From Bacteroidota bacterium (GTDB lineage Bacteria; Bacteroidota; Bacteroidia; Bacteroidales; FEN-979): a stretch of 44,171 nucleotides of DNA. Position 1 is the stretch's first letter; each line of letters opens with the position of its first letter. Of this stretch, positions 3,682 through 43,635 are shown in pieces. Location of the stretch: the NCBI GenBank assembly GCA_026391835.1, contig JAPLDF010000044.1:1-44171 (forward strand). The letters are read 5' to 3'. Made by a program: the position numbers and the translations under genes. Below the pieces are notes generated by a model. That model saw only the letters and a program-made list of their open reading frames with translations. It did not search any database and had not been told where the DNA came from.

Positions 3682-3850
3682 CGGATTTCAGATTTCACAC
3701 CTCACATCTCGCATTCAAACAAACTAATCAAAACACCCTTCACTTTTATGCTAAAATCCTGATTTAACATAAAAAAGTCTGATACAATGGAAAATAAGGA
3801 CAGATGCGAATTCGGAAATCGGAAATGTGAAATCTGAAATCCGAAATGTC
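3682..3850. repeat. Paired-arm heptamer element (CnnATTT unit)
   Basis: The left arm 3682-3716 reads on the plus strand as five heptamers: CGGATTT CAGATTT CACACCT and so on. The right arm 3802-3850, read on the minus strand, has seven: GACATTT CGGATTT CAGATTT and so on. The cores at 3681-3699 and 3826-3844 are perfect 19-base inverted copies. It lies between convergent genes; the 85 bases between the arms show nothing else. Confidence 0.85.
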
Positions 3851-3874
3851 AGGGCAGGTTGATATTGATTGCTG

Positions 3875-5278
3875 TCAATTTTTACCAAACTTCCTGGCAA
3901 TGCTTGAATTTTCTGTTTTAACTTTTAAAATATAAAGCCCGGCCGGATATGCCGCTGTGTTCAATATGACCTTGTATTCGGAAGAATAAGCGGCAAACAT
4001 TATTTTTCCCTGTAAATCACAAACCTCAATGTCCTTGCCGGTACAGTCAAGATCTCTGAAATCAATCGTTAAGTTTGTTGTCACAGGGTTGGGATACAGA
4101 GACAATCCTGATTCCCGGGGTTCATTAAGCCCTGTAGGGAAATCATATTTCATCACTGTTGCCCTGCCGGAGTTTCCCTCATCCATATATGCCAGGTAAG
4201 GCGTATCGGACGGACTGAGGAGAAAGCTCGGGTAGTCGGGATACCCTTCAGAGAATCCTGCATTCCCGACTGAAATCCAGTTGGTTCCGTCAAATGTTTT
4301 AACACAGATTCCAGGGAAGGACGAGTCCCAGTATGAAATATAAAGTTGACCAAATGAACTGAAAGCGACACCCATTCTTGTAGCCCATCCCAGTGTGGAG
4401 CCAGGATCCCCGACACTGGTCCAGTTGGTCCCATCGAATTTCATTACCTTTATCTGGTGATAATTCGCAGCATCGTCAATGGCTACATAAGGTTGGCCAT
4501 CCAATGGACTGATTCCAAATCCTGCTTCATCTGTTTGGCCGGAAGTGAAACCAGGCGATCCGACATTCACCCAGTCTGTTCCATCAAACTTCATAACCGT
4601 TACGTCCCCGGTATTCCAAAAATCCTGGTATACCACAAAAGGGGTGCCTGAGGGGCTGAAGGCTATTCTTAAATCCAAACTTTCACCGGAGGAGAAGTCT
4701 GGTGATCCAACGTACACCCAGTTGGCCCCGTCAAATTTCATGACCGATGCTTTGTTGGAATTTATCACATCCATAAACGCAACATAGGCCTGGCCACTGA
4801 CAGGATTGAAGGCGAGGCTGGTATAAGCAGCAGGTCCGGGTGAAAAGCTTCCGTTACCAACATTGACCCAGTTGCTTCCGTCATATTTCATGACTTTGGC
4901 CTGAACCGTGCCCGAACAGCCGGCAGCAAAAGCCACGTAGGGCATATTGTCAACCGGACTGAAGGCAAGACTGGTATAACCTATGCTGTCAATTGTGAAT
5001 CCTGCGATTCCCACATTTACCCAGCGACTTCCGTCAAATCTCATAACGACCCCCGGACCCCTTGTTCCACATCCGACGGGTATGTCGGCAAATGCTACAA
5101 AAGGCTGACCATCTGCCGGATTAAAGGCAAGGCTTGTATAATAGGCTCCTTCCTGCGAGAAGCCGGAATTTCCGACATTTTGCCATGTATTATCCGATGA
5201 GGGAGATTTGTAACTGCTTTGCTGAGAGAATACAACGATTGGCAGGACCAACCATACGATAAAGATTGCTGTTTTCAT
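3875..5278 (-). CDS. Secreted seven-repeat propeller protein with T9SS sorting domain
   Basis: I start at the internal ATG at 5278 because it begins a clean signal peptide (MKTAIFIVWLVLPIVVFSQ); the 29 codons upstream start with TTG and add a charged leader. The mature part has exactly seven repeats of about 48 residues, each with (N/D)W..VG..GF, a SLAFSP-like strand, a G.P.VA(F/Y) strand and (V/K)MK(F/Y)DG. Seven such units suggest a seven-bladed beta-propeller. The last about 80 residues (SLYPNPVTTNLTIDF to YPAGLYILKVKTE) are a type A T9SS domain, so the protein is exported and cleaved or anchored at the surface. The binding target is unknown. A weak box TAACTTTA (minus strand, near 5395) could be the promoter. 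Confidence 0.88.
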   Translation of the reverse strand: MKTAIFIVWLVLPIVVFSQQSSYKSPSSDNTWQNVGNSGFSQEGAYYTSLAFNPADGQPFVAFADIPVGCGTRGPGVVMRFDGSRWVNVGIAGFTIDSIGYTSLAFSPVDNMPYVAFAAGCSGTVQAKVMKYDGSNWVNVGNGSFSPGPAAYTSLAFNPVSGQAYVAFMDVINSNKASVMKFDGANWVYVGSPDFSSGESLDLRIAFSPSGTPFVVYQDFWNTGDVTVMKFDGTDWVNVGSPGFTSGQTDEAGFGISPLDGQPYVAIDDAANYHQIKVMKFDGTNWTSVGDPGSTLGWATRMGVAFSSFGQLYISYWDSSFPGICVKTFDGTNWISVGNAGFSEGYPDYPSFLLSPSDTPYLAYMDEGNSGRATVMKYDFPTGLNEPRESGLSLYPNPVTTNLTIDFRDLDCTGKDIEVCDLQGKIMFAAYSSEYKVILNTAAYPAGLYILKVKTENSSIARKFGKN

Positions 5279-5867
5279 ATCATTTCGGTTTACGGGTGAA
5301 CTTTGATGTACGCTGACATTTCTTGCTAACCTCCAAATGGCGGCTATTTTTGACGATAGACGCAATAAAAAATGATACCTGAGCAGTAAAGTTACGCCAT
5401 AATTGCAAAATCAGATACACTCATTGTGATATTTATTTTTCGCATCTCCACTCAGGTAACCACTTTTTTATGTACCATTATTAGTATACATTGGAATCTG
5501 AATAAGCTCTTTTATTGAAAATATTGAGTAACGTGAATCATGGGTCCAATGAAGAACTATTTATTGCAGTCTGCTTCAGCTGACTGCTAAAGTGACAATT
5601 CTGCATCACAGGGGCTTTAGCCCCATTATTAGGAAACACATCAATGTGGCTAAAGCCGGATGGAGTGCATCAATCTTAAACAGTTGGCTAAAGCCAACTG
5701 CAATAGATGAAAGCTTTCAAGGTAAGTTTTTTTTCTTGTGTGATTGGTTTTAACCCTTGATTCACATGAGTAATCGGAATTATTCGAGGCGGAAACGGAA
5801 AAAAGCATGAAGGAAATGGATTAAGAAAAAAAACTAACTTTGTCTGAGGCTTATCAAAAACAAGGTC
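5279..5867. repeat. Long spacer with REP-like palindromes
   Basis: About 590 bases without a gene. Palindromes: GCAGTC...GACTGC (5566-5587), GGGGCTTTAGCCCC (5611-5624), a related half-site GTGGCTAAAGCCGG (5646-5659) and AGTTGGCTAAAGCCAACT (5682-5699). The last three share the core GGCTAAAGCC or its complement, so they are copies of one element in alternating orientation. The divergent promoters of the flanking genes also lie here. Confidence 0.7.
5835..5842 (+). promoter_or_regulatory. Promoter -7 box TAACTTTG
   Basis: Fits TAnnTTTG and lies 25 bases before the ATG of the SUMF1-domain gene, the usual distance for short Bacteroidota leaders. Confidence 0.6.
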
Positions 5868-6749
5868 ATGTTCATTCTTGCGAATGTTCAGGGAGGGTTG
5901 CAAGGTGCCCTGAAAAATGCCGTAATGTTATGTCTCTTTATCCTTTCCTGCCAACTTGTATCGGCGCAGGTGATCAGCCCCGGGATGGTGTTTGTGAAGG
6001 GCGGGGCATTCAGGATGGGCTCCTTGTCCGGGGGGGCGGATGAGAAGCCTGTGCATGAGGTGGTGCTCGATGATTTCTACATCGGCCGGTTTGAAGTCAC
6101 GCAATATGAGTGGAGACAGATCATGGGACGGGATACCAGCAAGTGCTATTTCGAGGGGTGCGACAGTTGCCCCGTTGAGCGTGTAAGCTGGTACAAGGTA
6201 CAGGAGTACATCGAAAGCCTGAATGCGAAAACAAAGATGAACTACCGGCTCCCGACCGAGGCGGAATGGGAGTTTGCCGCAAGGGGAGGGCTGTTTTCAA
6301 AGAATTACAAATACAGCGGAAGCAATACAGACAGTGCAGTGGCCTGGAAAGTCGGCAATTCCGATTCCAGGACCCATCCGGTTGGCCGGAAAAAACCGAA
6401 TGAACTAGGATTATATGACCTCACGGGCAACGTGTTCGAGTGGTGCGCCGACTGGTACGCTCCGGGATGGTACCAGGTTTCGCCTGCCGGGAACCCGGCC
6501 GGACCGGTGGAAGGTGTTTTCAAAATCATCCGCGGGGGAAGCTGGTTCCACGACCATGCAGGGCTGTGTGCAACCGACCGCGAAAGTGCCAATCCATCCT
6601 TCCGGTATGGATATGTGGGATTCCGGCTGTGCCGTTCGGCTGCAGATGCGAAGCAAAACCCGGGCAACACTGAAAAATCCGGGTTGCACGGGAAGGATTC
6701 TGTTGAAGCAAAGAAAAAGGCATTCTATAAAAAATTTATCGGTTTTTAA
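5868..6749 (+). CDS. SUMF1/FGE-sulfatase-domain secreted protein
   Basis: 293 residues. The N-terminus is either the ATG at 5868 (long n-region) or the ATG at 5925, which gives the tidy signal MLCLFILSCQLVSAQ. The promoter box favours 5868. The domain is a formylglycine-generating-enzyme-like fold: GMVFVKGGAFRMGS, the FEVTQYEW segment, YRLPTEAEWEFAARGG, GLYDLTGNVFEWCADWY, RGGSWF and GFRLCR in the usual order. The pair of cysteines that makes a true FGE active before the GFR motif is not seen; only one Cys (GLCATDRE) is present. It is therefore probably a structural or binding relative (as in many Bacteroidota lipoproteins and gliding proteins) and not a sulfatase activator. The next gene follows after 32 bases. 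Confidence 0.85.
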   Translation: MFILANVQGGLQGALKNAVMLCLFILSCQLVSAQVISPGMVFVKGGAFRMGSLSGGADEKPVHEVVLDDFYIGRFEVTQYEWRQIMGRDTSKCYFEGCDSCPVERVSWYKVQEYIESLNAKTKMNYRLPTEAEWEFAARGGLFSKNYKYSGSNTDSAVAWKVGNSDSRTHPVGRKKPNELGLYDLTGNVFEWCADWYAPGWYQVSPAGNPAGPVEGVFKIIRGGSWFHDHAGLCATDRESANPSFRYGYVGFRLCRSAADAKQNPGNTEKSGLHGKDSVEAKKKAFYKKFIGF

Positions 6750-6781
6750 TGATTTCGATTTTGTTGTACCAACCACGCATC

Positions 6782-8107
6782 ATGAAGACCTGCTCAATTA
6801 ATATTCTCCTGTTTTTTTTATTGCTGCCACTGTTTTTGGCCGCACAGCATCTGAAATTTCATGGCACCATCGTCAATGAAGAGACCGGGAATCCTGTTGA
6901 AAATGTCAACCTGGTGATCCGGAATTCGAAATCGGGTACCGCGACAAACCAGGCAGGAGCCTTTGAGCTCGCCCTTCCGAAGCTTCCCGTCCTTCTTGAC
7001 ATCACCTGTGTCGGGTACAAGCCCCTTACGGTCGAGGTTGGCGAAATCGTGAAAAAACCGGTGGTGATCAGGCTGAAACCGCAGGTCCGCCAGCTTGAAA
7101 GCGTGACCATCACCAAACTTAAAGCAACGGCCGTATATACCGATCCCGATTATTCGGTGCTGGATTATGAATTGATGGGCGACAACCTTCTGATCCTGGT
7201 ATTCAGGTACCAGTTGAAGCGGTCGGCCATGCTGTTGCTGAACCCCGACGGGGACACGCTGGCGCAGGTTCCCCTGCCGGAGCTGCCCCCCGACAAACTC
7301 TTCAGGGATGCTTTTGGCAATGTGCACTATTTCTCGAAAAAGGGCAATGCCTTTCAATGCCATTATGATCCGTCGCTGAACCACCTCTATTTTCCGTATC
7401 GAACCACCGTTGATTCAATCAACCGCATGCTGGGGAATTTTTCGTTCAGCATGAAAAAGCGTCTTTACTTCCAGGAGGATATTTCCCAGGGATTCAGGGC
7501 CAAAATCGGTTATTACGACATGGACCAGGGGGTGAAATACCTGCAGACAGTTCAGAATGAACGGTCGGAATCGGATTATTACCGGGACAAATATTTTTTC
7601 ATCTCCCCCTCAAGGCTCGGCGATACCATTCCAAGCGATTTCCATGAACAGGCATACGATTTTTTTGCCCGGGGAAAGAACAGGAGCCGGATGGTTAAAA
7701 TCGGGAATGAGCGGGTTGCCGTTTTTAATTTTGGAGGCAATGTCATTGATATAGTCGATGCCGACTGGAACCTTGAAAAAGAGGTGCCCATCTCGTTTCA
7801 CAAGGAACATGAATATGCCTTTTTGGCCGCGCTTGCCAATTCATTCTTCCCGGATGATACCTGGAAATGGAGCGGGAAGCTGCTCACTGATGAACCATTT
7901 GGAGAGGTATATACAAGTTTCAGACTCCATGATGAGGTACGCCTGAGTAAAATTGACATTGAATCAGGCGTCCTGACCAATGAATTTGTCATCCCGTTTT
8001 CATTCCCCGAAAAGATCCAGGTACACCGCGGCTACTGCTATTTCCTCTACAAAGAGTGCGGGCAGGAACCAAAACGGAAATTGTACAGGATGAAATTCAG
8101 CAAATAA
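6782..8107 (+). CDS. Secreted carboxypeptidase-regulatory-like domain protein
   Basis: The frame opens at 6749 with an ATG overlapping the previous stop, but the ATG at 6782 starts a typical signal peptide (MKTCSINILLFFLLLPLFLA), so I use it; 441 residues. Residues 24-107 form a CarboxypepD_reg-like beta-sandwich (FHGTIVNEETGNPVENVNL, then TNQAGAFEL, ITCVGYKPL and VVIRLKP), common at the start of Bacteroidota outer-membrane proteins. The remaining about 330 residues are beta-rich, with repeats suggestive of a propeller, but match no family I can name. There is no TonB-dependent barrel. It is likely co-transcribed with the SUMF1 gene upstream. It ends 3 bases before the convergent MscS gene. 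Confidence 0.75.
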   Translation: MKTCSINILLFFLLLPLFLAAQHLKFHGTIVNEETGNPVENVNLVIRNSKSGTATNQAGAFELALPKLPVLLDITCVGYKPLTVEVGEIVKKPVVIRLKPQVRQLESVTITKLKATAVYTDPDYSVLDYELMGDNLLILVFRYQLKRSAMLLLNPDGDTLAQVPLPELPPDKLFRDAFGNVHYFSKKGNAFQCHYDPSLNHLYFPYRTTVDSINRMLGNFSFSMKKRLYFQEDISQGFRAKIGYYDMDQGVKYLQTVQNERSESDYYRDKYFFISPSRLGDTIPSDFHEQAYDFFARGKNRSRMVKIGNERVAVFNFGGNVIDIVDADWNLEKEVPISFHKEHEYAFLAALANSFFPDDTWKWSGKLLTDEPFGEVYTSFRLHDEVRLSKIDIESGVLTNEFVIPFSFPEKIQVHRGYCYFLYKECGQEPKRKLYRMKFSK

Positions 8108-8110
8108 CCT

Positions 8111-10600: not shown

Positions 10601-10630
10601 ACGATTGTTTTTATCAGTCTGCACCCATCA

Positions 10631-11578
10631 TCAGCAGTTAAGCAGCCTGAGTCCCTGTCTTGCATCCTCATATTCCTCCACCATCTCCCGGATAATCTCC
10701 CCGGCCGGTTTTACCTGGCCGATGAGCGCGGCAACCTGGCCGATCTCCAGCTCGCCTTCGTCCATATTGCCTTCGAACATCCCCAGTTTTGCCCGGCCTT
10801 TGCCAAGCAATTCACGGAGTGCTTCCTGCGAGGCCCCGGCATCTTCAAGTTGCTGCATTTTTTGAAAAAAGGAATTCCGGAGGAGCCTGACGGGGACAAT
10901 TTTCTTCATGGCCAGGAAGGTGCCGCCATCAGCGGCTTCAAGTATTTTCTGCTTAAATGCCGGGTGGGCCGACGATTCTTCGGAAGCGATGAAACGGCTG
11001 CCAACCTGCACCCCGTCGGCGCCAAGGGCCATCGCGGCCAGCATGCCGCGGCCTGTGGCAATGCCGCCGGCTGCGATGAGCGGCAGCGTGGTGGCTTTCC
11101 TGACCAACGGAATGAGTGTGAAGGTTGTCGTCTCCTCCCTGCCATTGTGCCCGCCCGCCTCAAAGCCTTCGGCAACAATGGCATCAACGCCGGATTGTTC
11201 GCATTTCAGGGCTGATTTGACATTGGCGACTACGTGGACAACAACGATGCCGTGACTTTTCAGCAGGGGAGTCCAGGTTGCCGGGTTTCCTGCGGAGGTA
11301 AAGACGATCGTGACTCCCTGGCGGATAATGACATCAAACTGTTTACCAGCCTGTGAAAATAAAAGCGGGATGTTGACACCGAAAGGCTTGTCCGTTGCCG
11401 CTTTGCATTTCCTGATCTGTTCTTCAAGCACTTCAGGTGTCATGGATCCGGCTCCAAGCAATCCAAGGCCCCCGGCATTGCTCACTGCCGCGGCAAGCCG
11501 CCATCCGCTGCACCAGATCATCCCGGCCTGGATAACCGGGAATTCTATATGAAACAGTTTTGTGATACAATTGTTCAA
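10631..11578 (-). CDS. Nitronate monooxygenase-like NAD(P)H:flavin oxidoreductase
   Basis: No ATG exists upstream of the conserved N-terminal motif FPVIQAGM, so I use the TTG at 11578, giving NNCITKLFHIEFPVIQAGM, as in relatives. An earlier TTG at 11647 falls inside a hairpin. About 315 residues form an FMN-binding TIM barrel: AAAVSNAGGLGLLGAG, DAIVAEGFEAGGHNG (the catalytic His region of 2-nitropropane dioxygenase relatives), PLIAAGGIATGRGM and ALGADGVQVGSRF for phosphate binding. Family members oxidise nitronates or act as FabK-like enoyl reductases, and this sequence does not decide between them. Being downstream of acyl-CoA genes makes a reductase role worth considering. Confidence 0.88.
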   Translation of the reverse strand: MNNCITKLFHIEFPVIQAGMIWCSGWRLAAAVSNAGGLGLLGAGSMTPEVLEEQIRKCKAATDKPFGVNIPLLFSQAGKQFDVIIRQGVTIVFTSAGNPATWTPLLKSHGIVVVHVVANVKSALKCEQSGVDAIVAEGFEAGGHNGREETTTFTLIPLVRKATTLPLIAAGGIATGRGMLAAMALGADGVQVGSRFIASEESSAHPAFKQKILEAADGGTFLAMKKIVPVRLLRNSFFQKMQQLEDAGASQEALRELLGKGRAKLGMFEGNMDEGELEIGQVAALIGQVKPAGEIIREMVEEYEDARQGLRLLNC

Positions 11579-11636
11579 AACGGGCCAGGGATTATGATAA
11601 GTTCTAAAAATATTTTGTGCCGGTAAAAAATACCAT

Positions 11637-11694: not shown

Positions 11695-11732
11695 GTGCCT
11701 TCTGTAGTAAAAAACCAATTAGTTCGAAACTA

Positions 11733-14417: not shown

Positions 14418-14506
14418 CACGAAGTGTCACGAAGAAGGCACGAAGAACCACGAAGGTGTAATCATTTTCTTCGTGGTCCTTCGTGTTGCCTTCGTGTGCC
14501 TTCGTG
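14418..14506. repeat. Paired-arm CACGAAG element with helical spacing
   Basis: CACGAAG occurs four times on the plus strand (14418, 14428, 14439, 14449) and four times as CTTCGTG (14469, 14479, 14490, 14500). Start spacings are 10, 11 and 10 in both arms. Linkers of 3, 4 and 3 bases differ in sequence between the arms while every heptamer is identical. It can fold as four 7-bp helices separated by symmetric internal loops. It lies between the crotonase and dehydrogenase genes. Confidence 0.92.
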
Positions 14507-27833: not shown

Positions 27834-27861
27834 AAGAATATTCTCCGTCTCAGCACCCAAT

Positions 27862-27896
27862 TTGTCATTTGTCACTTGTCATTTGTCACTTGTAAC
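27862..27896 (+). repeat. Heptamer array TTGTCAY x5
   Basis: TTGTCAT TTGTCAC TTGTCAT TTGTCAC TTGTAAC in perfect 7-base register, then decaying. It lies in the 119-base gap between the M1 and permease genes, 28 bases after the stop. Confidence 0.9.
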
Positions 27897-27952
27897 TGTC
27901 ATTTCTTCCCTTTCCCGATTAGAAATTATTTTATCTTTATCGAAAAAAAATA

Positions 27953-29710
27953 GTGTCAAATCAGCACCTGTTCCGTAAGAAATCCATCAGCCATATCCTG
28001 AAGGATGCGCATAGCCGGGAGGGCGAACATTCGGGACTGAAAAAAAGCCTCAATGTGGTTGATCTGACGGCTCTTGGCATTGCAGCGGTGATCGGTGCCG
28101 GCATATTCAGCACCATTGGAAATGCAGCTGCCAGCGGGGGGCCGGCCGTTTCCCTCCTCTTCCTTTTTACGGCAATGGCCTGCGCTTTTTCGGCCCTTTG
28201 CTACGCACAATTCGCCTCGCTCATTCCCATCAGCGGAAGTGCGTACACCTATGCATATGCAAGTTTCGGGGAGCTCATCGCATGGATCATCGGCTGGGAC
28301 CTCATCATGGAGTATGCCATTGGCAACATTGCCGTGGCGATCTCCTGGTCCGACTATTTTACCGGTTTCCTCGGAGGAGTGGGGCTGCATGTGCCCACTT
28401 ACCTGGGCATCGACTATCTTTCTGCAGCACGGGGTTATCACCAGGCAACCCTCGAACTGATGCGCGGCATCCCCATTGCAAACCTGCCCGACACGGTGCG
28501 GGAGGCATATTCCGCCTGGCTGTCGGCTCCAGTAATCGGTGGGATCAGGATCATTGCCGACATTCCTGCGTTTTCGATCGTGGTATTTATCTCTGTGCTG
28601 GTTTACGTGGGTATTTATGAAACCAAGGTTGCAAGCAACATCATGGTGTTGTTAAAGGTCGGCATCCTCTTCCTGATCATTGCCGTCGGTTCATTTTACA
28701 TTGATCCGGAAAACTGGCACCCGTTTGCACCCAACGGCGTGGCCGGTGTGCTGAAGGGCGTTTCGGGGGTGTTTTTTGCCTACATCGGGTTTGATGCCAT
28801 CTCTACAACGGCCGAAGAGTGCCGCAACCCGCGGAGAGACCTTCCCCGGGCCATCATCTATGCCCTGATCATCACCACGGTGCTGTACATCATGATCAGC
28901 CTTGTGCTTACCGGGATGTTGCATTATTCAGAACTCGGAGTCGGTGACCCGCTGGCTTTTGCGTTTCAGAAACTGCACCTGACAAAACTTTCGGGCGTGA
29001 TCGCCATCAGCGCCGTGATCGCCATGGCAAGCGTACTGCTTGTATTCCAGGTGGGGCAGCCCCGCATCTGGATGAGCATGAGCAGGGACGGGTTGCTGCC
29101 CCGGTCGTTCTCGAAAATTCATCCGCGGTTCAAAACGCCCTATTTTGCAACGATCATTGCCGGTATCCTGGTGGCCATTCCGTCGCTTTTCATGAACCTC
29201 ACCGAAGTTACCGACCTGACCAGCATCGGAACCCTGTTTGCCTTCATCCTGGTTTCAGGCGGCGTACTTGTTCTCCAGAGCGGCTGGAAAAAGAACGACA
29301 TTCCTGCAAATGAAAAAGGATTCCAGGTTCCATACTTCAACAGCCGTTATTTCCTGCCGGTGATCTGGGCCGGGGTTTTCATCGTGCTGTTTTACTGGAA
29401 CCGTCCGGAAATCAGCATGTTTTTTAATACAGCCCGTGATGCCTCCGGGAATATTTTCCCGGCATCTTTTGCCTGGCATTTGCTCCTTACTGAATTTCCG
29501 ATCCTGATTTTCATCATTTCGGCCATGGTGCTTACCTGGTTTGGTATCCGCAGTCAACTGTCGCTCATCCCGGTGCTGGGACTGCTGACAAACTTTTACC
29601 TGATGGCCCAGCTGGGAGTTACCAACTGGCTGCGCTTCCTGGTCTGGCTGGCTATCGGGCTCATCATCTACTTCAGTTATGGAAGAAGGCACAGCAAACT
29701 GGTGAACTAG
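27953..29710 (+). CDS. APC family amino acid permease
   Basis: 585 residues beginning with GTG; no earlier or nearby ATG fits. The APC signature opens the membrane part: LTALGIAAVIGAGIFSTIG (TM1, with the GxG substrate-binding break), then about 12-14 hydrophobic helices, FFAYIGFDAISTTAEECRNP (TM6) and RDLPRAIIYALI. Relatives (YfnA/CAT group) import cationic or branched amino acids by proton symport. Residues about 135-190 form an extra extracytoplasmic loop that is longer than usual. With the M1 peptidase upstream, peptide breakdown and amino-acid uptake are side by side. Its stop codon runs into an octamer repeat array. Confidence 0.93.
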   Translation: MSNQHLFRKKSISHILKDAHSREGEHSGLKKSLNVVDLTALGIAAVIGAGIFSTIGNAAASGGPAVSLLFLFTAMACAFSALCYAQFASLIPISGSAYTYAYASFGELIAWIIGWDLIMEYAIGNIAVAISWSDYFTGFLGGVGLHVPTYLGIDYLSAARGYHQATLELMRGIPIANLPDTVREAYSAWLSAPVIGGIRIIADIPAFSIVVFISVLVYVGIYETKVASNIMVLLKVGILFLIIAVGSFYIDPENWHPFAPNGVAGVLKGVSGVFFAYIGFDAISTTAEECRNPRRDLPRAIIYALIITTVLYIMISLVLTGMLHYSELGVGDPLAFAFQKLHLTKLSGVIAISAVIAMASVLLVFQVGQPRIWMSMSRDGLLPRSFSKIHPRFKTPYFATIIAGILVAIPSLFMNLTEVTDLTSIGTLFAFILVSGGVLVLQSGWKKNDIPANEKGFQVPYFNSRYFLPVIWAGVFIVLFYWNRPEISMFFNTARDASGNIFPASFAWHLLLTEFPILIFIISAMVLTWFGIRSQLSLIPVLGLLTNFYLMAQLGVTNWLRFLVWLAIGLIIYFSYGRRHSKLVN

Positions 29711-29773
29711 CGGACAAGCGGACAGGCGGACAGGCGGACAGGCGGACGGGCGGACAAGCGGACGGGCGGACTG
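29710..29773 (+). repeat. Octamer array GCGGACxy x8
   Basis: Eight units GCGGAC followed by AA, AG, AG, AG, GG, AA, GG, TG. The first G is the last base of the permease stop codon TAG. The same octamer recurs 15 times at 43516-43635 on the other strand. Confidence 0.97.
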
Positions 29774-29806
29774 CGTAATTTTTAATTTTTAATTCGTAAT
29801 TATAAG

Positions 29807-30617: not shown

Positions 30618-30706
30618 CACGAAGGCACGAGGTCACAAAGATTACACAAAGGTGTAAATGTTGAAAATCATCACTTTGTGTTCCCTGGTGTCTTTGTGCC
30701 CTGGTG
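30618..30706. repeat. Paired-arm CACnARG heptamer element
   Basis: Left arm: CACGAAG, CACGAGG, CACAAAG, CACAAAG with linkers of 1, 1 and 4 bases. Right arm (minus strand, outside inwards): CACCAGG, CACAAAG, CACCAGG, CACAAAG with linkers of 1, 1 and 3. Each arm has four heptamers, as in the element at 14418-14506. It lies between the TSUP and isoaspartyl peptidase genes. Confidence 0.88.
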
Positions 30707-32912: not shown

Positions 32913-32939
32913 ATCAAAGATCAAAAATCAAAATCAAAA
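32913..32939 (+). repeat. ATCAAAR near-heptamer array x4
   Basis: ATCAAAG ATCAAAA ATCAAA ATCAAAA, just 8 bases upstream of the kinase start codon (which is on the minus strand). It occupies the position where a leader would be. Confidence 0.7.
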
Positions 32940-32969
32940 TGGAAAAACACCCGGCTAACCAGGATTTTG

Positions 32970-33020
32970 CATTGTTTTCATTGCCTGCATTGCCTGCATT
33001 GTCTGCATTGTCTTCATTAT
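32970..33020 (+). repeat. Nonamer array CATTGnnTn x5-6, entering a stop codon
   Basis: CATTGTTTT CATTGCCTG CATTGCCTG CATTGTCTG CATTGTCTT, then a degenerate CATTAT that contains the stop codon of the LOG gene (TTA on this strand, 33017-33019). A related array stands at 43458-43511 in opposite orientation. Confidence 0.92.
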
Positions 33021-33659: not shown

Positions 33660-33786
33660 GATTTACGATTTACGATTTTAGATTTACGAATGGGGTTCTG
33701 ATCAGCTGATAACCCAAAACAGGTATTGTATTCCGATTCGGAGTTAGCATTTTCATCCCAAAATCGTAAATCCCAAATCGTAAATT
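33660..33786. repeat. Paired-arm GATTTAC heptamer element
   Basis: Left arm 33660-33687: GATTTAC GATTTAC GATTTTA GATTTAC. Right arm 33759-33786 on the minus strand: AATTTAC GATTTGG GATTTAC GATTTTG. Four heptamers per arm in strict register, with a 71-base middle. It lies between the divergent LOG and manA genes, so it can affect transcription of both. A box TAGTTTTG at 33619-33626 could serve manA. Confidence 0.92.
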
Positions 33787-37112: not shown

Positions 37113-37160
37113 TACGTGTCCCGGGAAAAATTATCAAGTTGAAAACAAATTGAAAGGAAT

Positions 37161-38006
37161 ATGAAAGCGATTTTCCAGATAACCATCTTTCTGCTTTTTG
37201 GCGTTATGCTGCTCCAGTCGTGTACAAAGGTCAGCGAACCCTATTATACGGTGAAGTCGATCATTGTTGATACAACCAAACGACCGGTGCTGCTGGAGGA
37301 TTATACCGGTCACCTGTGCGTAAATTGCGCTCCTGCAGCTGAAGTTGCAACGACGATCCGTGATCTTAACCCGGGATTGGTATATATCATCGCTGTTCAC
37401 GCCGGTTCCTTTGCCAAGCCCAACCCGGTAAGTTATCCTCCTTACCTGGCAGCCGATTACACCTGTGCTGCCGGAAATGACTGGTATGGCTACAGTGGTT
37501 TTAACATCAACGTGAACCCAAAGGGAATGGTCAACAGGCTTCCTTACAAGGGGAAAATTTCCTTTGGCCCTTCCGAATGGTACGAGGCGGTCAAGGTGGC
37601 TGATGTCCTGCCCAGGATGGCAGTCATGACCGTACACAATACATTCAGCAGCCAGACGAAACAGCTGAATTCAAAGGTTGAGGTTAAATTCCTGGCAGGG
37701 ATGACAAGCAAGGTAAACCTGACAGTTTGCATTCTCGAAGACAGCATTTATGGCGGCCAGCTGAACGATAAAACGATCATTTACAACTACAGGTTTATGC
37801 ATATGCTGCGCGGCTCCCTCAACGGGAGTTTCGGGGAAGAAATTGCCGTCAACCCGGTGGCCGGCGATTTAATAACAAAGTCATATTCATTTGATTTCAC
37901 CCCCGTATCCTGGGTGCCTGGCCACTGCAGCGTTATTGCATTTATCTCTGATGCCGATACCAAAGAGGTTTTCCATGTTGCCAAATCGGGCGAAATTACA
38001 CCCTGA
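37161..38006 (+). CDS. Omp28-like outer membrane lipoprotein
   Basis: 281 residues. The lipobox LLQSC gives acylated C21. VLLEDYTGHLCVNCAPAAEV carries a thioredoxin-like C53-V-N-C56 at the position typical of Omp28-related proteins, followed by an inserted region and a C-terminal beta-sandwich (NLTVCILEDSIYGGQL to HCSVIAFISDA). Omp28 was first described as an adhesion-related protein of Porphyromonas; the thioredoxin-like core suggests redox or scaffold roles. It is the last gene of the TlpA - DUF6029 - Omp28 unit. Confidence 0.92.
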   Translation: MKAIFQITIFLLFGVMLLQSCTKVSEPYYTVKSIIVDTTKRPVLLEDYTGHLCVNCAPAAEVATTIRDLNPGLVYIIAVHAGSFAKPNPVSYPPYLAADYTCAAGNDWYGYSGFNINVNPKGMVNRLPYKGKISFGPSEWYEAVKVADVLPRMAVMTVHNTFSSQTKQLNSKVEVKFLAGMTSKVNLTVCILEDSIYGGQLNDKTIIYNYRFMHMLRGSLNGSFGEEIAVNPVAGDLITKSYSFDFTPVSWVPGHCSVIAFISDADTKEVFHVAKSGEITP

Positions 38007-38595
38007 TAATTCTGTTTTCCTCTGTCCGGACTCAGCCACAATACCTCATCCCCCTGCCCCTTCTCCGCACGGAGAAGGGGAGGATGATCGTAAATACGTT
38101 TCATACCAGGGTATTCCAAAAATCGCAAGGCTGACTCCGGAGGAGTCGTATTTTGATAGAATTGTTGCCAAGGTCAGCATTATCGGCCCTGTAAGGGTCG
38201 GATTAAAAGTAGCGGTACAATAGACAATTATCAATCATGACATAAGATAATTGGGGTGGTTTACTGACGACTGTTTTTTGATTTCACAGAATATACGACC
38301 CCTACAGGGTCGATAATTTGAATTGTCCTCATATTGCTACCAATATTTGATCCCTTCGGGACCATCCTCTTATAAGGACTGATGACGACTCTGTCAATTG
38401 TCCGTTCTTCTACCCGGATTCAACTTGCTGAAATCCAGTTGTTAAAAAACAGCATCGGTGTTCTCTGATTTTAAAGATGGGAATAAACAGTAAATCCGGA
38501 CGGAGAGAAGGTCAGGGGGTGAGGGATGTTGCATTGCCCAGGTGCAACCGACCGCTCACTGAGCGAAGCCGAAGTGAGCGAAGCCGAAGTGAGTG
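38007..38595. repeat. Long spacer with REP-like palindromes
   Basis: About 590 bases between convergent genes with no coding frame of interest. Hairpins: CCCCTTCTCC-GCAC-GGAGAAGGGG (38057-38080, no T-tract), GACTCC-GGA-GGAGTC (38133-38147), CCCTGTAAGGG (38187-38197), CGACCC-CTACA-GGGTCG (38296-38312) and TCCCTTCGGGA (near 38350). Two of them are followed by the same TCG(G)AT(A)A tail. A CCCCCTCTCCGCGCGG relative of the first recurs near 44018. Confidence 0.7.
38561..38595 (-). repeat. 15-mer repeat x2.3 abutting a stop codon
   Basis: GAGCGAAGCCGAAGT occurs twice, plus GAGTG, and ends exactly at the stop codon of the C25 protease gene (TTA on plus, 38596-38598). CTCACT just outside (38555-38560) is complementary to the ends of the unit, so it can also fold. 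Confidence 0.9.
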
Positions 38596-41139
38596 TTATC
38601 TTTTAACCACCAGCTTTCGCGTAGCCATACCCTCTTTCCCTGCCACTTTCAAAAAGTAAATTCCTTCCGGCAGCGCACCCAGGTTAATGGCTTTACTTAA
38701 GTGGCCTGAAACAGAAATGTCCTTCCCGGAATAAACGACGGTGCCGATCATATCAAATACGGTGAGCTCCAGCTTATCTTCGGGGGTTGACTTCACCTGC
38801 AGGGTGAAATTACCGTTGCAGGGGTTGGGCAGGGCCGTAAAGGTGAACGGTCCGGTTTTATCGGAGGTGGCAGCCGGGAAATCCGCGACAATATACCCGG
38901 TACTCAATACGCTGTCGGTTGAAAAACCATCGCCAACTACCAGTTTTACATCATAGTTCCCGACAGTTTCATAGGTGATGACCGGGTTTTTTTCGGTAGA
39001 ACTGGAAGGTGTCCCGCCCGGGAAATACCAATGCCATGTGGTGGTGTTTCCGGCAGAGGTATCTGCAAAGGCAACGGAATGGCCGGGTACAACCCTCGTG
39101 GGCAACCCGGAAAAGCCTGCAACTACAGGAGCAGGGATGGCATGAACAATAAGGTTTCCCTGGAAAGGGAGCATGTTGTAGGAGGTAATCACCAGGTGGA
39201 TCGTGTCGGGAGCAAGGGTCAGCGCAGGGAATGCAAGCGTAACCTCGTCATTCGCAATGATGCCCGTGGCAAGAATGGTACCGGCGCGGGTTGCAGTAAC
39301 CCTGGCACCGTTGACCCCGCAATTTACGGTAAGGGATGAATCAGTGACAAACAACACCGAATCGTATTGCGCTGCAATGGGCTGAGGAGTTGCAGTACGT
39401 ACCATGATCGTCGGATCTCCGAAAACAGTCCATGTATCGGCCATGTTGGCGCCATCGGTGCCATACGAATCGATCATTTTCATGCAGCCGTTGATTGACA
39501 GCCCGGCAAAGGTGCGCCTGATGTTGTTTGAATCGGATTCAATGAGGATGTTGGTCATGGCATCCTGGCCTTCCATCGGGGAGTTCCAGCTCTGGTTGAT
39601 CGTGGAACCGAGAAAAGCGATTGCCCCGGTGGGCTGGCCGCCCTGCGATGCCCGCAACCATGCTTCGGCGAAACATGTACCGGCGGTAAAATTGCCGTTC
39701 ACACAGGCAACGGACCAGACAAAAGGAAGCTTCCCCGTATTGGTCAGCTGGTTGACGTTGGTATTGCTGAAATTTGATGTTCCCCACGAGGTGTTGCTGC
39801 CGTGGCCGGTGTACAGGATCAGGCTCGCGCCAGCGTTCACTTCTGTTGCAACTGTTGGAGGCGTGGGATTCCCGGGGGCATCGTTGCCACCCTGCGACCC
39901 GTCGAACAGCTCCGGGTTCATGGTATATTTATACCCCAGCAGCTGGGTTTGCTGATTTCTGATGTGCTGGTAATCATATTCATTGTCATCGCCGGGGCCC
40001 TGGTCCGAACCGATGCCGATTACCGTGGAATACCAGTCATCCGCAAGAAATTGGGGATTCTGCTCGTACTCGAGGGTGCGCTGCACCTGTGTTTGCACCT
40101 GCGCGGTATTTTCGGCTGAGAATCTTCCGACAAAGACATCTGAATAGTGGTCGTTCCCGACAATATAACCATAAGCATTGTCTGACGGGCCTCCAAGGTT
40201 ACCCCCTGTATTGGTGGGGACCTGCGCACCATCGCCGACAAGGAGCACATGGGTAAGTCCGTGGGTGTTGTAATAGCCGGCGATGAATGTCTTGATCTGT
40301 GCCGCAGTGGAACCGGCCGAATCCTTGTTTATCATTTCGGTATGATATCCTTCGGCGAGTTTCCAGTTTACATAAGGCTGCATGGCACTCATGAACGGAC
40401 CGTAACAAATCACCAGCAGGTTCCCGTATTCACCCAGGGGGGTGTAATTCATGGCATCGAAATTCAGGAACTGGTGAGCCAGCACCGGCTGGAAATCCTG
40501 GGAGATCGTTTTCCCGGTTTGTGCCATTGGTAAAGGGTTAATGCCGGTTTCTGCTGTTTTATAGAGTTCGATGGTCATGCTGTAAAACACCCGCAGGACT
40601 TTTGTAACCGGGTTGTACTGAAAGGGGTATGCAACCAGGGTTTGCCCGCGAACATCACGGATGATATATGGTTCGCGGGTATCGGCGGGCTGGCCCGGGT
40701 AAAAACCATCCCTGGAATAAGCTGGTCCGAAGGAGTATGGAACGGTTGAGGGATCAATATCACGTGAGATCACCCCTTTTGATGGCGCAACCATGATGCC
40801 GGGATAATCTTTATAATTGGAAGAAACAACCCGGAAACCCATGCCTGCCTGGTCGGGAATGACCACGGATGCCGTTAACTTGGGCAAATCAGGGGAGCCG
40901 GCCTCCTGGATGGGTGTTGATTTTGCAACTTCAACTGTAAAAGCAGCACCATTCGGCGTTTGCACTTCGCGGAGATAAAAGCCTACAAGGGTGAACTGAA
41001 TGGTCGACCGGTCAATCGTTGAGGAGACCAGCCTGGTGCCGGCGGGAGTCGGAAACGCACTGTTGATATTGATCCAGTTGCCGGCAAACGCGGTCATTGC
41101 AAATACAAAGGAAACGAATAGTACCAGGGTTTTACGCAT
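38596..41139 (-). CDS. Gingipain-like C25 cysteine protease with PKD and T9SS domains
   Basis: 847 residues from the ATG at 41139 (signal MRKTLVLFVSFVFAMTAFAG). A C25 propeptide (VSSTIDRSTIQFTLVGF to GFYPGQPADTREPYII) precedes the peptidase: LLVICYGPFMSAMQPYVNWK, HVLLVGDGAQVP, catalytic H446 in YTGHGSN and C479 in WSVACVNGNF. The 33-residue distance between them equals that in Porphyromonas gingipain R, from memory. A PKD domain (FADTSAGNTTTWHWYFPGG) and a T9SS tail (ALPNPCNGNFTLQVKS to LPEGIYFLKVAGKE) follow. It is a secreted, self-activated endopeptidase. Confidence 0.96.
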   Translation of the reverse strand: MRKTLVLFVSFVFAMTAFAGNWININSAFPTPAGTRLVSSTIDRSTIQFTLVGFYLREVQTPNGAAFTVEVAKSTPIQEAGSPDLPKLTASVVIPDQAGMGFRVVSSNYKDYPGIMVAPSKGVISRDIDPSTVPYSFGPAYSRDGFYPGQPADTREPYIIRDVRGQTLVAYPFQYNPVTKVLRVFYSMTIELYKTAETGINPLPMAQTGKTISQDFQPVLAHQFLNFDAMNYTPLGEYGNLLVICYGPFMSAMQPYVNWKLAEGYHTEMINKDSAGSTAAQIKTFIAGYYNTHGLTHVLLVGDGAQVPTNTGGNLGGPSDNAYGYIVGNDHYSDVFVGRFSAENTAQVQTQVQRTLEYEQNPQFLADDWYSTVIGIGSDQGPGDDNEYDYQHIRNQQTQLLGYKYTMNPELFDGSQGGNDAPGNPTPPTVATEVNAGASLILYTGHGSNTSWGTSNFSNTNVNQLTNTGKLPFVWSVACVNGNFTAGTCFAEAWLRASQGGQPTGAIAFLGSTINQSWNSPMEGQDAMTNILIESDSNNIRRTFAGLSINGCMKMIDSYGTDGANMADTWTVFGDPTIMVRTATPQPIAAQYDSVLFVTDSSLTVNCGVNGARVTATRAGTILATGIIANDEVTLAFPALTLAPDTIHLVITSYNMLPFQGNLIVHAIPAPVVAGFSGLPTRVVPGHSVAFADTSAGNTTTWHWYFPGGTPSSSTEKNPVITYETVGNYDVKLVVGDGFSTDSVLSTGYIVADFPAATSDKTGPFTFTALPNPCNGNFTLQVKSTPEDKLELTVFDMIGTVVYSGKDISVSGHLSKAINLGALPEGIYFLKVAGKEGMATRKLVVKR

Positions 41140-41145
41140 AACGAT

Positions 41146-41174
41146 CAAATTTAAATGGTTACATGGTTTCTCAA
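41146..41174 (-). promoter_or_regulatory. Promoter TTG-N18-TAAATTTG (minus strand)
   Basis: The -7 box is at 41153-41146 on the minus strand, with TTG 18 bases upstream at 41174-41172. Only 6 bases separate the box from the ATG, so the transcript would have almost no leader. Confidence 0.6.
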
Positions 41175-41271
41175 CATAACAAAGTTACAAGATAATCCAA
41201 TACAACAAATAAAAATATTTGTGAATGTTATAACTGACTTTCAGAAGTGCCCCTGGAAAAAGGAGGGGAGT

Positions 41272-42507
41272 TTATTCTGTCCTGACCATGGTGGTATCAA
41301 CCTTCCGGATATTGTACACAGGGTAGATGGCAGCCAGGAAACCGACAAACATCACCGTGAAAAAGACGGCAAAAAAGTCGGTTACTTTCATCAGCACCGG
41401 GTATGCGCTCACCACAAAACTGCTGTCGGCCGATCCCAGGTGCACCAGGCCAAACCTGATTTGCACCCAGCAAACGATCGCCCCGAGCGCCAGCCCCAGC
41501 ATGGCACCGATAAAGGATATGAGTACGCCTTCAAGGAGAAAAATTCCCTGGATCAGCCGGTGGTTTGCTCCCAGGCTCCGCAGCACGGCAATGTCCTTTT
41601 TCTTGTCCAGGATGAGCATGGACAATGTTCCGATCACGTTGAAGGTGGCAATGATCAGGATAAGCGTCAGGATCATGAAGATGTAATTCTTTTCAGATAC
41701 CATGATCTTAAACAGTATTTCCTCCTGCTGGTAGCGGTTTTTAATGATGTATTTGCTGCCGGCAAGGAGCTCTATTCTTTTCTGCACATCCGCCTGGCTG
41801 GCATCCTTGGCCAGGTCAACTTCAAGCGAGGTGCGTTCATCGCCATAGTCAAGCAGTTTTTTCACGAAACGCAGCGGCAGGATGGCATATTTGACATCGT
41901 ATTCCCACTGGATCTGAAAAAAGCCGGAAGGAAAGATGACTTCGGTATTGAAGGCATTTTCAAATCCGCCCGAAAAGGTTGCATCTCGCCGCGGAACATA
42001 AACGGCAATCGGGTTTACATAATCCTGGAGGTTGGCATTCAGGGTGCCGGCCACCCCGTACCCGAGCAGCGCATAGTCCTTGTCGCCATCCTGCAACAGG
42101 AATTTTCCCTCAACCATCATGGTGTCAAGCCCGCTCATTTTCGTGTAAGCCTCACTCACGCCTTTAATGGTCACAATGGACTGGTCATCCTTGTATTTCA
42201 TCAGGGCATCCTCTTCGATTACCTCGGCAACATGCAGCACACCGGGTGTTTTTTGCAATTTGTCAAGCGGAAAGCTTTTCAGGTCAAAGGTTTTGCCATG
42301 GGCTGGGGTGATCTGGATGCTGGGGTTGAATGAGCTGAACAGCGAAACCACCAGCTGGTCGAAACCGTTGAATACCGAAAGGACAATGATCAGTGCCATG
42401 GCCCCGATAGCCACGCCCACAACCGATATCCCCGAAATGATGTTGATGATGTTGTGCGACTTCTTCGAGACCAGGTAACGGCGGGCGATATAGAAGGGGA
42501 AGTTCAA
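41272..42507 (-). CDS. LolC/LolE-type FtsX-like ABC transporter permease
   Basis: 411 residues. The conserved N-terminus (N)FPFYIARRYLVSKKSHNIIN is preceded directly by TTG and by no usable ATG, so the start is TTG at 42507. Membrane helix 1 is GISVVGVAIGAMALIIVLSV, a periplasmic MacB-like domain spans about 50-260, and three C-terminal helices follow, with LRSLGANHRLIQGIFLLEGV and the last helix FFAVFFTVMFVGFLAAIYPV. It is the permease part of the system that releases outer-membrane lipoproteins; the ATPase (LolD) is not in the window. In Bacteroidota this gene commonly follows rbfA, which fits here. Confidence 0.94.
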   Translation of the reverse strand: MNFPFYIARRYLVSKKSHNIINIISGISVVGVAIGAMALIIVLSVFNGFDQLVVSLFSSFNPSIQITPAHGKTFDLKSFPLDKLQKTPGVLHVAEVIEEDALMKYKDDQSIVTIKGVSEAYTKMSGLDTMMVEGKFLLQDGDKDYALLGYGVAGTLNANLQDYVNPIAVYVPRRDATFSGGFENAFNTEVIFPSGFFQIQWEYDVKYAILPLRFVKKLLDYGDERTSLEVDLAKDASQADVQKRIELLAGSKYIIKNRYQQEEILFKIMVSEKNYIFMILTLILIIATFNVIGTLSMLILDKKKDIAVLRSLGANHRLIQGIFLLEGVLISFIGAMLGLALGAIVCWVQIRFGLVHLGSADSSFVVSAYPVLMKVTDFFAVFFTVMFVGFLAAIYPVYNIRKVDTTMVRTE

Positions 42508-42508
42508 A

Positions 42509-42534
42509 GGAATTACGAATTAGGAATTACGAAT
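42509..42534 (+). repeat. Repeat GGAATTACGAATTA x1.9
   Basis: A 14-base unit and a 12-base partial copy lie immediately upstream of the TTG start of the permease gene. AATTCGTAATT also appears at 29791-29804. Confidence 0.8.
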
Positions 42535-42559
42535 GAACATTTGAATTTTACCCTTTCAC

Positions 42560-42612
42560 CATTTTGCCTTTTCATTTGCATTTTGCCTTTTCATTTTTCA
42601 TTTTGCATTTTA
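42560..42612 (+). repeat. CATTTTG near-heptamer array abutting a stop codon
   Basis: CATTTTG CCTTTT CATTTG CATTTTG CCTTTT CATTTTT CATTTTG CATTTTA. It ends 1 base before the methyltransferase stop codon (TTA on plus, 42614-42616). Confidence 0.85.
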
Positions 42613-42613
42613 T

Positions 42614-43438
42614 TTATTTCCAGGCTTTCACAATCAGCCCCGTCCCGGTTTCATGTGTCATCTTTGTATCAAGCCAGTTACAGAAAAACGCCACTGGGTA
42701 GGTGAGGAGGTAATAAAATGGAAGCAGGATGAAAAAAAGTTTGGTGGTGTTGAGCATCAGGATCGGGTATTTCATCGAAAGCTTCCAGGCGATCTTCCCG
42801 GGGGTGCCATAGGTAAAACGCGCTTCAGTCTTTGTAAACCCGGCACGGTTCAGCTTTTCCTGTATGTCGGTTATGTTATATCCGTCACGGACATGCTCGT
42901 CGATGAACGACTCGCCCTCTTCATGGTCGTGCACATCAGAGCCACCCTGGTCCGAAGGAGTTGAAATCAGCAACATTCCCTTCTGCGTCAGCGAGTCATA
43001 GAAATTCCGGAATACAGCTTCATCATCGCCGATATGTTCCATGACATCCACAGAGAGGATCAGGTCAAACCGGTCGGGCTGTGAAAATCGGGTAAGGTCA
43101 GCTTTTTCAAAGAGTACATTTTTTCTGCCCATCTTTGCGAAAAAGGCATTGCAGTCGGCGATCTGCTCATCTTTTACATCCACGGCATCTACGAACCACC
43201 ATGGCGACATGCCGGTGAGAAACCAGGTGTACTGCCCGAATCCCGATCCGGCATCCAGGATCATTCGTTTGGTATTGCGGTCGGCAGGTTCTGACAGACC
43301 CGCCCATTGCCTGATCTCTTTCCGCACATGCCAGGCACGCAGCAGCAGCAGGTCAAGCAGTTTGTAAAACAATATCCGCAGGAAGGGGGTTTTATTGAAA
43401 ACCTTTCCCAGCGATTTCTTTATCGGATCGTACTGCAT
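42614..43438 (-). CDS. SAM-dependent methyltransferase with C-terminal membrane segment
   Basis: 274 residues from an ATG. A class I methyltransferase core: MILDAGSGFGQYTWFL (motif I, about 59-74), FVDAVDVKDEQI (motif II), LILSVDVMEHIGDDEAVF (motif IV) and KGMLLISTPSDQGGSDVHDH (motif V). The N-terminal basic helices (KKSLGKVFNKTPFLRILFYK) and one hydrophobic segment near the end (KLFFILLPFYYLLTYPVAFF) suggest a membrane-bound enzyme, as in quinone or lipid methyltransferases. The substrate is unknown. It is inserted between rbfA and the permease and flanked by repeat arrays on both sides. Confidence 0.9.
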   Translation of the reverse strand: MQYDPIKKSLGKVFNKTPFLRILFYKLLDLLLLRAWHVRKEIRQWAGLSEPADRNTKRMILDAGSGFGQYTWFLTGMSPWWFVDAVDVKDEQIADCNAFFAKMGRKNVLFEKADLTRFSQPDRFDLILSVDVMEHIGDDEAVFRNFYDSLTQKGMLLISTPSDQGGSDVHDHEEGESFIDEHVRDGYNITDIQEKLNRAGFTKTEARFTYGTPGKIAWKLSMKYPILMLNTTKLFFILLPFYYLLTYPVAFFCNWLDTKMTHETGTGLIVKAWK

Positions 43439-43457
43439 AGGTCAAATTAAAATGTAA

Positions 43458-43511
43458 GAATGCAAACAATGAAAGCAATGAAAACAATGAAAGCAATGAA
43501 AACAATGCAGG
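43458..43511 (+). repeat. Nonamer array CAATGAAAR x5-6
   Basis: GAATGCAAA, then CAATGAAAG CAATGAAAA CAATGAAAG CAATGAAAA CAATGCAGG. It is the reverse-complement relative of the CATTG array at 32970-33020 and stands just upstream of the methyltransferase start. Confidence 0.93.
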
Positions 43512-43515
43512 GTTG

Positions 43516-43635
43516 GTCCGCCCGTCCGCCTGTCCGCCCGTCCGCCTGTCCGCCCGTCCGCCCGTCCGCCTGTCCGCCTGTCCGCCCGTCCGCCCGTCCG
43601 CTTGTCCGCCCGTCCGCTTGTCCGCCTGTCCGCTT
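43516..43635 (-). repeat. Octamer array GCGGACxy x15 (minus strand)
   Basis: Fifteen uninterrupted units. Read in the direction of rbfA, the two variable bases are AG, AA, GG, AA, GG, GG, AG, AG, GG, GG, AG, GG, AG, GG, CA. It begins 2 bases after the rbfA stop codon. Orientation relative to the upstream gene is the same as in the array at 29710-29773. Confidence 0.98.

Follow-up and report, generated by a model that had tools for sequence, protein, structure and literature searches.

The question raised by the 44,171-nucleotide (nt) stretch of Bacteroidota DNA analyzed here (the window; contig C69 of G000, a 5.35-Mb draft genome in 86 contigs) is what produces the short tandem repeats in its intergenic spacers. 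Proteins with type IX secretion tails, and Bacteroidales metagenome-assembled genomes as the nearest named relatives, assign G000 to Bacteroidota and probably to Bacteroidales. We consider it quite probable that these arrays are the inverted arms, mostly gene-less, of small mobile elements that carry one gene of the four-helix-bundle family PF05635 (4HB; the S23 or intervening-sequence (IVS) protein). Most examined 4HB genes are flanked by inverted arrays, each with its own repeated word, and similar proteins tend to share a word. Related elements stand at different places, sites occur in both occupied and empty form, and some copies lack the gene or carry internal deletions; that the protein binds its word, and how the elements move, are predictions from sequence. 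Comparisons within the genus covered G000 and 18 other genomes and wider scans took in 41 genomes, all of them drafts, possibly metagenome bins, with approximate gene starts.

The repeats were surveyed in the window and 60 further stretches of G000 (1,235,171 bases of the 5.35 Mb), in which a home-made gene caller delimited 663 spacers of at least 20 nt (131,480 bases) and 1,091,190 bases of coding DNA. Runs of at least 10 exact matches at lag 7 numbered 81 in the spacers versus 0.2 in controls (the mean of five dinucleotide shuffles), and 6 in coding DNA; at lag 8 there were 46 (0.4 shuffled; 2 in coding DNA), at lag 9 seven (0.4) and at lag 11 twelve (0.6), with periods 5 and 6 hardly raised (1 and 2). 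When mismatches were allowed, 115 spacers (17%) held an array (period 7 in 96 arrays, period 8 in 35 and period 9 in 9), and the related genomes sampled showed the same periods with partly different favorite words. The intergenic repeats, mainly of period 7, noted in the initial annotation are therefore real, with period 8 also enriched, and the common generating process that it proposed is supported. Its statement that most intergenic gaps carry such repeats proved too strong, as a strict array occupies 7 of the 26 window spacers (about 10 with loose cases counted by eye). Nor does each site have a unit of its own: 92 period-7 runs were built from 26 words, and two of these, GATTTAC/GTAAATC and GTGACAA/TTGTCAC, together account for 46 of the 92. 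The view that the arrays are not copies of one element held insofar as the element families are numerous and differ in their words, and failed within a family, where one word is common to many places in the genome. Within the window, the heptamer register was confirmed at 3684-3714, 3808-3847, 27860-27897, 33660-33685 with 33755-33785, 42510-42534 and 42560-42611, as were two octamer and two nonamer arrays (Table 1); at 14418-14506 and 30618-30706, by contrast, the repeats are not regular heptamers but hairpins built on a CACGAAG or CACAAAG core, whose short linkers vary in length.

The link to 4HB genes emerged from genes picked by profile score, the arrays playing no part in the choice. Arrays lay within 1.5 kb of the top PF05635 hit in 28 of 30 genomes, versus a fraction of 0.30 for random 3.3-kb stretches of G000. 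A gene was counted as flanked when arrays of the same word stood inverted within 300 nt on each side, with at most two mismatches. This was found for 30 of 46 4HB genes (seven repeat rows having been removed), with 14 flanked on one side, 1 by direct arrays and 1 by none, and for 14 of 20 genes in 20 further stretches, two of which repeat earlier genes. After removal of L294 and L297, whose proteins are identical to those of L270 and L237, the total comes to 64 distinct 4HB genes: 42 flanked by inverted arrays on both sides, 16 one-sided, 2 direct and 4 with none. Some two-mismatch cases (for example, L166, L276 and L280) are weak by eye, and 34 of the 42 hold at one mismatch or fewer. Among 198 other G000 genes of 80-200 amino acids (aa), used as a control, 2 had inverted, 3 direct and 3 unrelated arrays, 51 an array on one side and 139 none. 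G000 itself has 12 PF05635 genes, of which 7 are flanked in this way, 4 have an array on a single side and 1 has none; their words, GATTTAC (contig C72), GATTTCG (C12), GCGGACAG (C82), GGTGAACG/GGTAAACG (C22), ACAGGGTG (C39) and AGTCACAG (C27), all recur in other G000 spacers. A Pfam scan recovered PF05635 in all eight 4HB proteins submitted (60-131 bits, curated cut-off 33.8); at E 0.001 it was the only family in seven, and the eighth added a sub-threshold bAvd match. The ratio of nonsynonymous to synonymous divergence (dN/dS) was about 0.1 in three old 4HB pairs, in which dS is saturated, and three close pairs were uninformative.

Protein and word are paired. Among cross-species pairs of the 62 4HBs with a word, counting words with at most one mismatch as shared, the word was shared in 23 of 37 pairs above 60% identity, 18 of 80 at 50-60% and 26 of 1623 below 50%; identity and word distance were correlated at -0.26, the lowest of 500 permutations being -0.135. 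Some same-word pairs lie in a common neighborhood (L261/L265, L255/L266, L289/L306), and others share the element alone, at different places (L270/L284, L283/L300). Of the 14 genomes of the genus in which a recQ gene was identified, five have a GATTTAC-4HB in the spacer upstream of it, three a GTGACAA-type 4HB and one a TGACCAA-4HB, and the other five have no 4HB there; each copy sits between two protein genes. Exact GATTTAC matches number 107, 415, 203, 81 and 177 in the five genomes with the GATTTAC-4HB, versus 13, 6, 18, 10, 75, 0, 16, 7 and 3 in the other nine, a separation with odds of 1 in 2002 if the genomes were independent, which they are not. Similarly, AGGCAAT has no match in 15 of 19 genomes and 90, 5, 5 and 4 in the remaining four; an AGGCAAT-4HB is known from three of these (L255, L266 and G008:C115, in the last of which the matches flank the gene). 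The dispersed words of G000 matched its own 4HB words exactly at 0.36 (0-0.20 for relatives' words), and those of G014 at 0.30, also better than for relatives' words.

Plasmids provided occupied and empty versions of the same sites. When one 4HB was used to query 72,556 plasmid records by tblastn, 33 gave a match, most of them from Nostoc, Calothrix, Trichormus and other cyanobacteria; 18 of the 33 were examined (H5, H9, H11, H18-H22, H25, H27-H29 and H31-H33 were left out), with 16 of the 18 loci annotated. Within 170 nt on each side (400 nt for L341), strict inverted arrays flanked 13 of the 18 plasmid 4HBs versus 2 of 33 neighboring genes, with words including AGGGAAC, ACAGGTG, AGGGTGT, AAAAGGG and TCAGAAT. 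The genes sit within operons, and the annotated copies adjoin protein genes on both sides. At a Trichormus variabilis site, the element is absent from three plasmids of about 97% identity, which have a 13-nt spacer instead, and a fourth plasmid (about 90% identical) holds a gene-less array. At five more plasmid sites, an occupied version could be compared with an empty or gene-less one in plasmids of about 86-94% identity, and L362 is a gene-less copy that retains both arms. Compared with L367, a plasmid without the element, the upstream gene in L354, which has it, is annotated 36 nt shorter. As a separate observation, the elements at L341, L344 and L352 lie inside operons of clustered regularly interspaced short palindromic repeats (CRISPR)-Cas systems on cyanobacterial plasmids, either between cas6 and cas4 or between cas10 and cmr3.

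These data bear directly on the alternative that survives best, in which the arrays came first, copied from spacer to spacer by template switching or gene conversion, and later served the 4HB gene merely as good landing sites. Such copying would spread words, and some words do lack a cognate 4HB in their genome (GTGACAA in G000). However, protein and word are paired, and the gene appears jointly with both arms at sites that are empty in relatives, so that we regard this order of events as rather unlikely.

The arrays also have a preferred placement. In same-strand spacers, the closer gene end was the stop codon for 106 arrays (median distance 6 nt, at most 3 nt for 40 of them) and the start for 74 (median 16 nt), the gene starts being approximate; an N run in G017 and two arrays from an order-level genome were left out of the counts of position and orientation. 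Read outward from the nearest gene end, 113 of 139 arrays whose words were seen at least three times showed one preferred strand, whereas 500 trials of random strand flips gave a mean of 89 and a maximum of 99; the arms within a spacer therefore tend to be inverted. Scored by the sense of transcription instead, 97 of 139 arrays agreed, which lies inside the random range, and orientation by transcription was rejected. Inverted copies of a word elsewhere in its own spacer numbered 248 versus 91 ± 41 in shuffled pairings (maximum 291), which is only suggestive. The transporter gene at 27953-29710 has orthologues with an array within 300 nt in 14 of 20 loci, the words varying by species; two of these loci are cut by contig ends, and the gene on the other side of the spacer may differ between loci. 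Orthologous spacers, whose comparison the initial annotation had recommended, were covered by an 86-kb alignment of G006 and G011 (about 96% identical). Five of its eight breaks fall in spacers with differing arrays, no arrays were seen at the other three, and one further gap is a chaining artefact.

If the arrays were products of slippage alone, in neutral spacers where repeats of 7-8 nt grow since loops of this size escape repair, their avoidance of genes and variable copy number would be expected, and slippage surely contributes to their length. Yet words are common to unrelated places, one strand is preferred at gene ends, a single gene family is flanked, related plasmids differ in the presence of whole elements, and periods 5 and 6 are almost without excess. 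As the sole cause slippage is very improbable and was rejected on the word sharing, the orientation and the 4HB link. Regulatory sites under selection, for translation, termination or RNA stability, are a still poorer explanation. Many arrays do adjoin stop codons or precede starts, and a translational role has been proposed for the TAACTGA repeats of Beggiatoaceae, as far as the available text of MacGregor 2015 (PMC4679880) shows, but the words beside the orthologous transporter gene differ by species, and orientation tracks gene ends instead of transcription. A reverse transcriptase that adds templated words to broken DNA, in the manner of telomerase-like end healing, would fit the outward reading and the gene-end position but has next to no probability as an explanation: it is largely refuted for known reverse transcriptases by the lack of an RVT_1 match in the array-bearing drafts G011, G012, G014 and G020 (95-98% complete), non-homologous end joining was rejected after Ku was found in 0 of 41 genomes, and the 4HB gene would be left unexplained.

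For the mobile 4HB elements that we favor, a mechanism can be outlined. A complete element comprises an array of a 7-9-nt word, a 4HB gene of roughly 120-140 codons, and an array of the word's reverse complement. The 4HB protein may recognize its own word and drive or guide the dispersal of the arms. Any cell carrying that 4HB would then accumulate gene-less arrays of the word in its spacers, where insertion directly after a stop codon would do little harm. No recognizable transposase, recombinase or reverse transcriptase is present inside the element, and no reverse transcriptase is found among the annotated neighbors of 16 plasmid 4HBs; the copying step may use a partner enzyme from the host. 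Old arrays would later lengthen, shorten and drift. The PF05635 family is large, and structures of some members have been solved; to our knowledge, neither a function nor a catalytic site is established for it. The likeliest reader of the word would be a ring of five subunits, each contacting one word in single-stranded DNA or RNA, for which TRAP, a ring binding spaced repeats, is a model. We infer such a ring because five chains are listed for both solved 4HB relatives (the nearest, 2gsc, is from Xanthomonas), arrays beside 4HB genes have a median of 5.6 units, and variation within words falls on few positions: one to three in GCGGACAG, GGTGAACG, GGGTAACA, AATGCAAAC and GTAAATC, five of the six usable families, with that of the GTGACAA family spread across five (the GATTTCA row was unused, GATTTAC units being mixed in). 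In addition, the Xanthomonas relative is described as a toroidal homopentamer in the available part of one paper (PMC4990558).

Several observations weigh against the arrays being arms of 4HB elements. The genomes are related, and their counts are thus not independent. GTGACAA is abundant in G000 (95 matches), with no GTGACAA-4HB among its 12 PF05635 genes; of the other genomes rich in this word, G003 (35) has a known GTGACAA-4HB, and none is known in G009 (68) or G001 (24). The rule that a word follows its 4HB therefore has exceptions. G009 also holds 75 GATTTAC matches without a 4HB before recQ, its other 4HBs having been covered only in part. Dispersed words are no nearer to own 4HB words than to those of relatives in G003, G013, G018, G006 and G011, where the 4HB sets are incomplete, as they are for the relatives generally. 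Four PF05635 genes of 141-148 aa (L287, L304, L307, L308), found in several genomes of the genus, are without arrays; they are perhaps a non-mobile, domesticated group. No constant target duplication was found at the junctions of the occupied and empty plasmid sites compared, with a possible GTAAT at one, ATG at another and none at a third. The GTGACAA exceptions and the weak matches in five relatives have slightly reduced our confidence in both this account and the broader one given below.

The window itself holds gene-less copies of such elements, and the copy at 3684-3847 retains only the start of a 4HB frame (Table 1). Its inverted GATTTCA-type arms enclose a core of about 104 nt, which has matches in 10 of 41 genomes and at six places in G000 and which in L249 and L251 is the leader of a frame recognized by the PF05635 profile. 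Two window words, GCGGACAG and GATTTAC, match 4HB words of G000; the remaining arrays are at most one letter from a 4HB word in G000 or a relative, which is weak evidence at such short word length.

Table 1. Repeat arrays and related features of the window, with the grounds for each assignment.
Feature	Position	Strand	Basis
Left arm, GATTTCA-type word, of a 4HB-element derivative	3684-3714	+	Array call; same arm ahead of the shared core in other copies
Shared core, leader of the 4HB gene; frame start ATG at 3787-3789, frame broken after a few codons	3703-3806	+	111-base query; longer-frame copies L249, L251
Right arm, inverted, GAAATCx	3808-3847	+	Array call
CACGAAG hairpin, unassigned to the 4HB class	14418-14506	.	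Seen; spacer family comparison
TTTGTCA/TTGTCAC array (GTGACAA word, minus-strand reading)	27860-27897	-	Array call; word of the recQ-site 4HBs in G003, G014, G015
GCGGACAG octamer array from the stop codon of the 27953-29710 gene	29711-29771	+	Same word on both sides of 4HB G000:C82:11259 (L283)
TAATTTT array ahead of the next start; no confident family	29776-29801	+	One-mismatch word matches only
CACAAAG-type hairpin, unassigned to the 4HB class	30618-30706	.	Seen; spacer family comparison
ATCAAAA-type array; no confident family	32913-32933	+	Array call, word comparison
Nonamer array, CATTGCCTG type; AATGCAxxC on the opposite strand	32966-33013	-	Nearest 4HB word is L281 in G005 (AAACAATGC); none found in G000
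GATTTAC left arm of a gene-less pair	33660-33698	+	Word of 4HB G000:C72:160394 (L289)
GTAAATC right arm, inverted, of the 33660 gene-less pair	33755-33786	-	Array call
GAATTAC array, one letter off GATTTAC	42510-42534	+	Array call, word comparison
CATTTTG/TTTTCAT array	42560-42611	+	One mismatch to the word beside 4HB L292
Nonamer array AATGAAAxC	43459-43507	+	Array call, word comparison
GTCCGCCT octamer array (GCGGACAG word), reading from the end of the 43638-43973 gene	43516-43637	-	Word of L283

That all arrays derive from one dispersed element whose body is conserved was rejected, the 4HB-leader core joining only three of 671 masked G000 spacers. The largest family among these (37 spacers) is a CGCAAAG hairpin with GAGGCTGTCTC/GAGACAACCTC-type ends, which we see as another element class. 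Among the CACGAAG/CGCAAAG hairpins, which also occur in the window (14418-14506, 30618-30706), this larger family has GAGGCTGTCTCAAAAG/CTTTTGAGACAACCTC-type ends and resembles a miniature inverted-repeat transposable element (MITE) of an insertion sequence. The window further contains a 15-nt tandem repeat (TGAGCGAAGCCGAAG) at 38560-38593, at the stop of the 38596-41148 gene, and a spacer at 5581-5710, between genes 3875-5278 and 5970-6749, which has the form ggctttagccccattattag ... gtggctaaagccgga and contains ggctaaagcc words in inverted orientation. Elsewhere, gene-less inverted heptamer pairs were noticed in L134 (5708-5816, 12379-12496), L132 (16302-16410) and L151 (2652-2880), in records labeled Acidobacteria and Pyrinomonadaceae metagenome-assembled genomes and Chitinophaga rupis.

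Intergenic heptamers are known from unrelated bacteria without an agreed origin, for which the 4HB link offers an explanation, and 4HB elements could explain similar unexplained repeats of other bacteria. Our broader proposal, which we hold tentatively and think somewhat less likely to be right than wrong, is that PF05635 genes are the active genes of a widespread mobile class without a known transposase, in which each ring would read a private word of 7-9 letters, one per subunit, and spread gene-less arms. The 23S rRNA intervening sequences and the heptamers found in Bacteroidota, Xanthomonas and cyanobacteria would then all be products of this class. If true, this would be a selfish system like that of repetitive extragenic palindromes (REP) and their REP-associated tyrosine transposases (RAYT), built on a protein without a recognizable transposase, and a protein-to-word code of 7-9 letters could be learned from genomes. 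Each 4HB is predicted to bind its own word, and words to rise and fade with their 4HB. No paper linking PF05635 genes to heptamer arrays in general was found, in a literature search that lacked most subscription journals, and the available texts of heptamer papers on cyanobacteria, Xanthomonas and Beggiatoaceae contain no 4HB link (PMC4679880, PMC4692102).

Among the known heptamers, the short tandemly repeated repetitive (STRR) sequences of filamentous cyanobacteria had already been named as the closest analogue in the initial annotation, and the analogy gained substance, as the same kind of gene lies between inverted heptamer arrays on cyanobacterial plasmids; the likeness is one of layout. 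The Xanthomonas GGGAATC repeats are likewise heptamers between genes, and two genomes have 70 and 75 inverted pairs of them according to the accessible text (PMC4692102), and the nearest solved 4HB structure is also from Xanthomonas. The TAACTGA repeats, reported from Beggiatoaceae, cyanobacteria and five Bacteroidetes and discussed as a translational signal, are intergenic heptamers partly of the same phylum, but consist of one word, and the portion of the paper available to us does not mention a 4HB link (PMC4679880). In Porphyromonas gingivalis, another member of the Bacteroidota, the BrickBuilt MITE is also a miniature intergenic element with a tandem repeat, whereas its unit is 23 nt and the available text mentions no 4HB gene (PMC4596501). 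MITEs in general share with 4HB elements the short gene-less copies, inverted ends and many copies (33660-33786; L362). Diversity-generating retroelements, with their Avd protein, differ in having a linked reverse transcriptase, of which there was no sign among the annotated neighbors of 16 plasmid 4HBs or, as an RVT_1 match, in four array-bearing genomes. A few 4HBs do adjoin a reverse transcriptase, for example at G003:C55 (L237), and the gene at that locus (L237, L297) is possibly a retroelement accessory and not an array-flanked element.

In organization, the elements recall RAYT/REP systems, in which, as the consulted part of the literature describes them, a gene lies between two inverted repeats, gene-less repeats are dispersed, the two co-evolve, and repeat abundance follows the gene (PMC2817692). 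The 4HB gene is similarly flanked by inverted repeats, with dispersed cognate copies, but it belongs to PF05635 and is not a tyrosine (HuH) transposase, and its units are tandem 7-9-mers, whereas a REP is a single palindrome. A closer relation is seen with the 23S rRNA intervening sequences that contain the S23 frame, which are described in the available text as inverted-repeat hairpins and called selfish elements; in Coxiella burnetii, two or three GACAGAT heptamers stand ahead of the S23 start (PMC4990558). In both, a PF05635 gene lies inside inverted repeats (here in 42 of 64 4HB genes). The intervening sequences, as far as published descriptions were accessible, lie in rRNA genes and are excised by RNase III, whereas 4HB elements lie between protein genes and have longer arrays and many gene-less copies. 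The 23S intervening sequences are nevertheless the nearest published counterpart of the general link between PF05635 genes and heptamer arrays.

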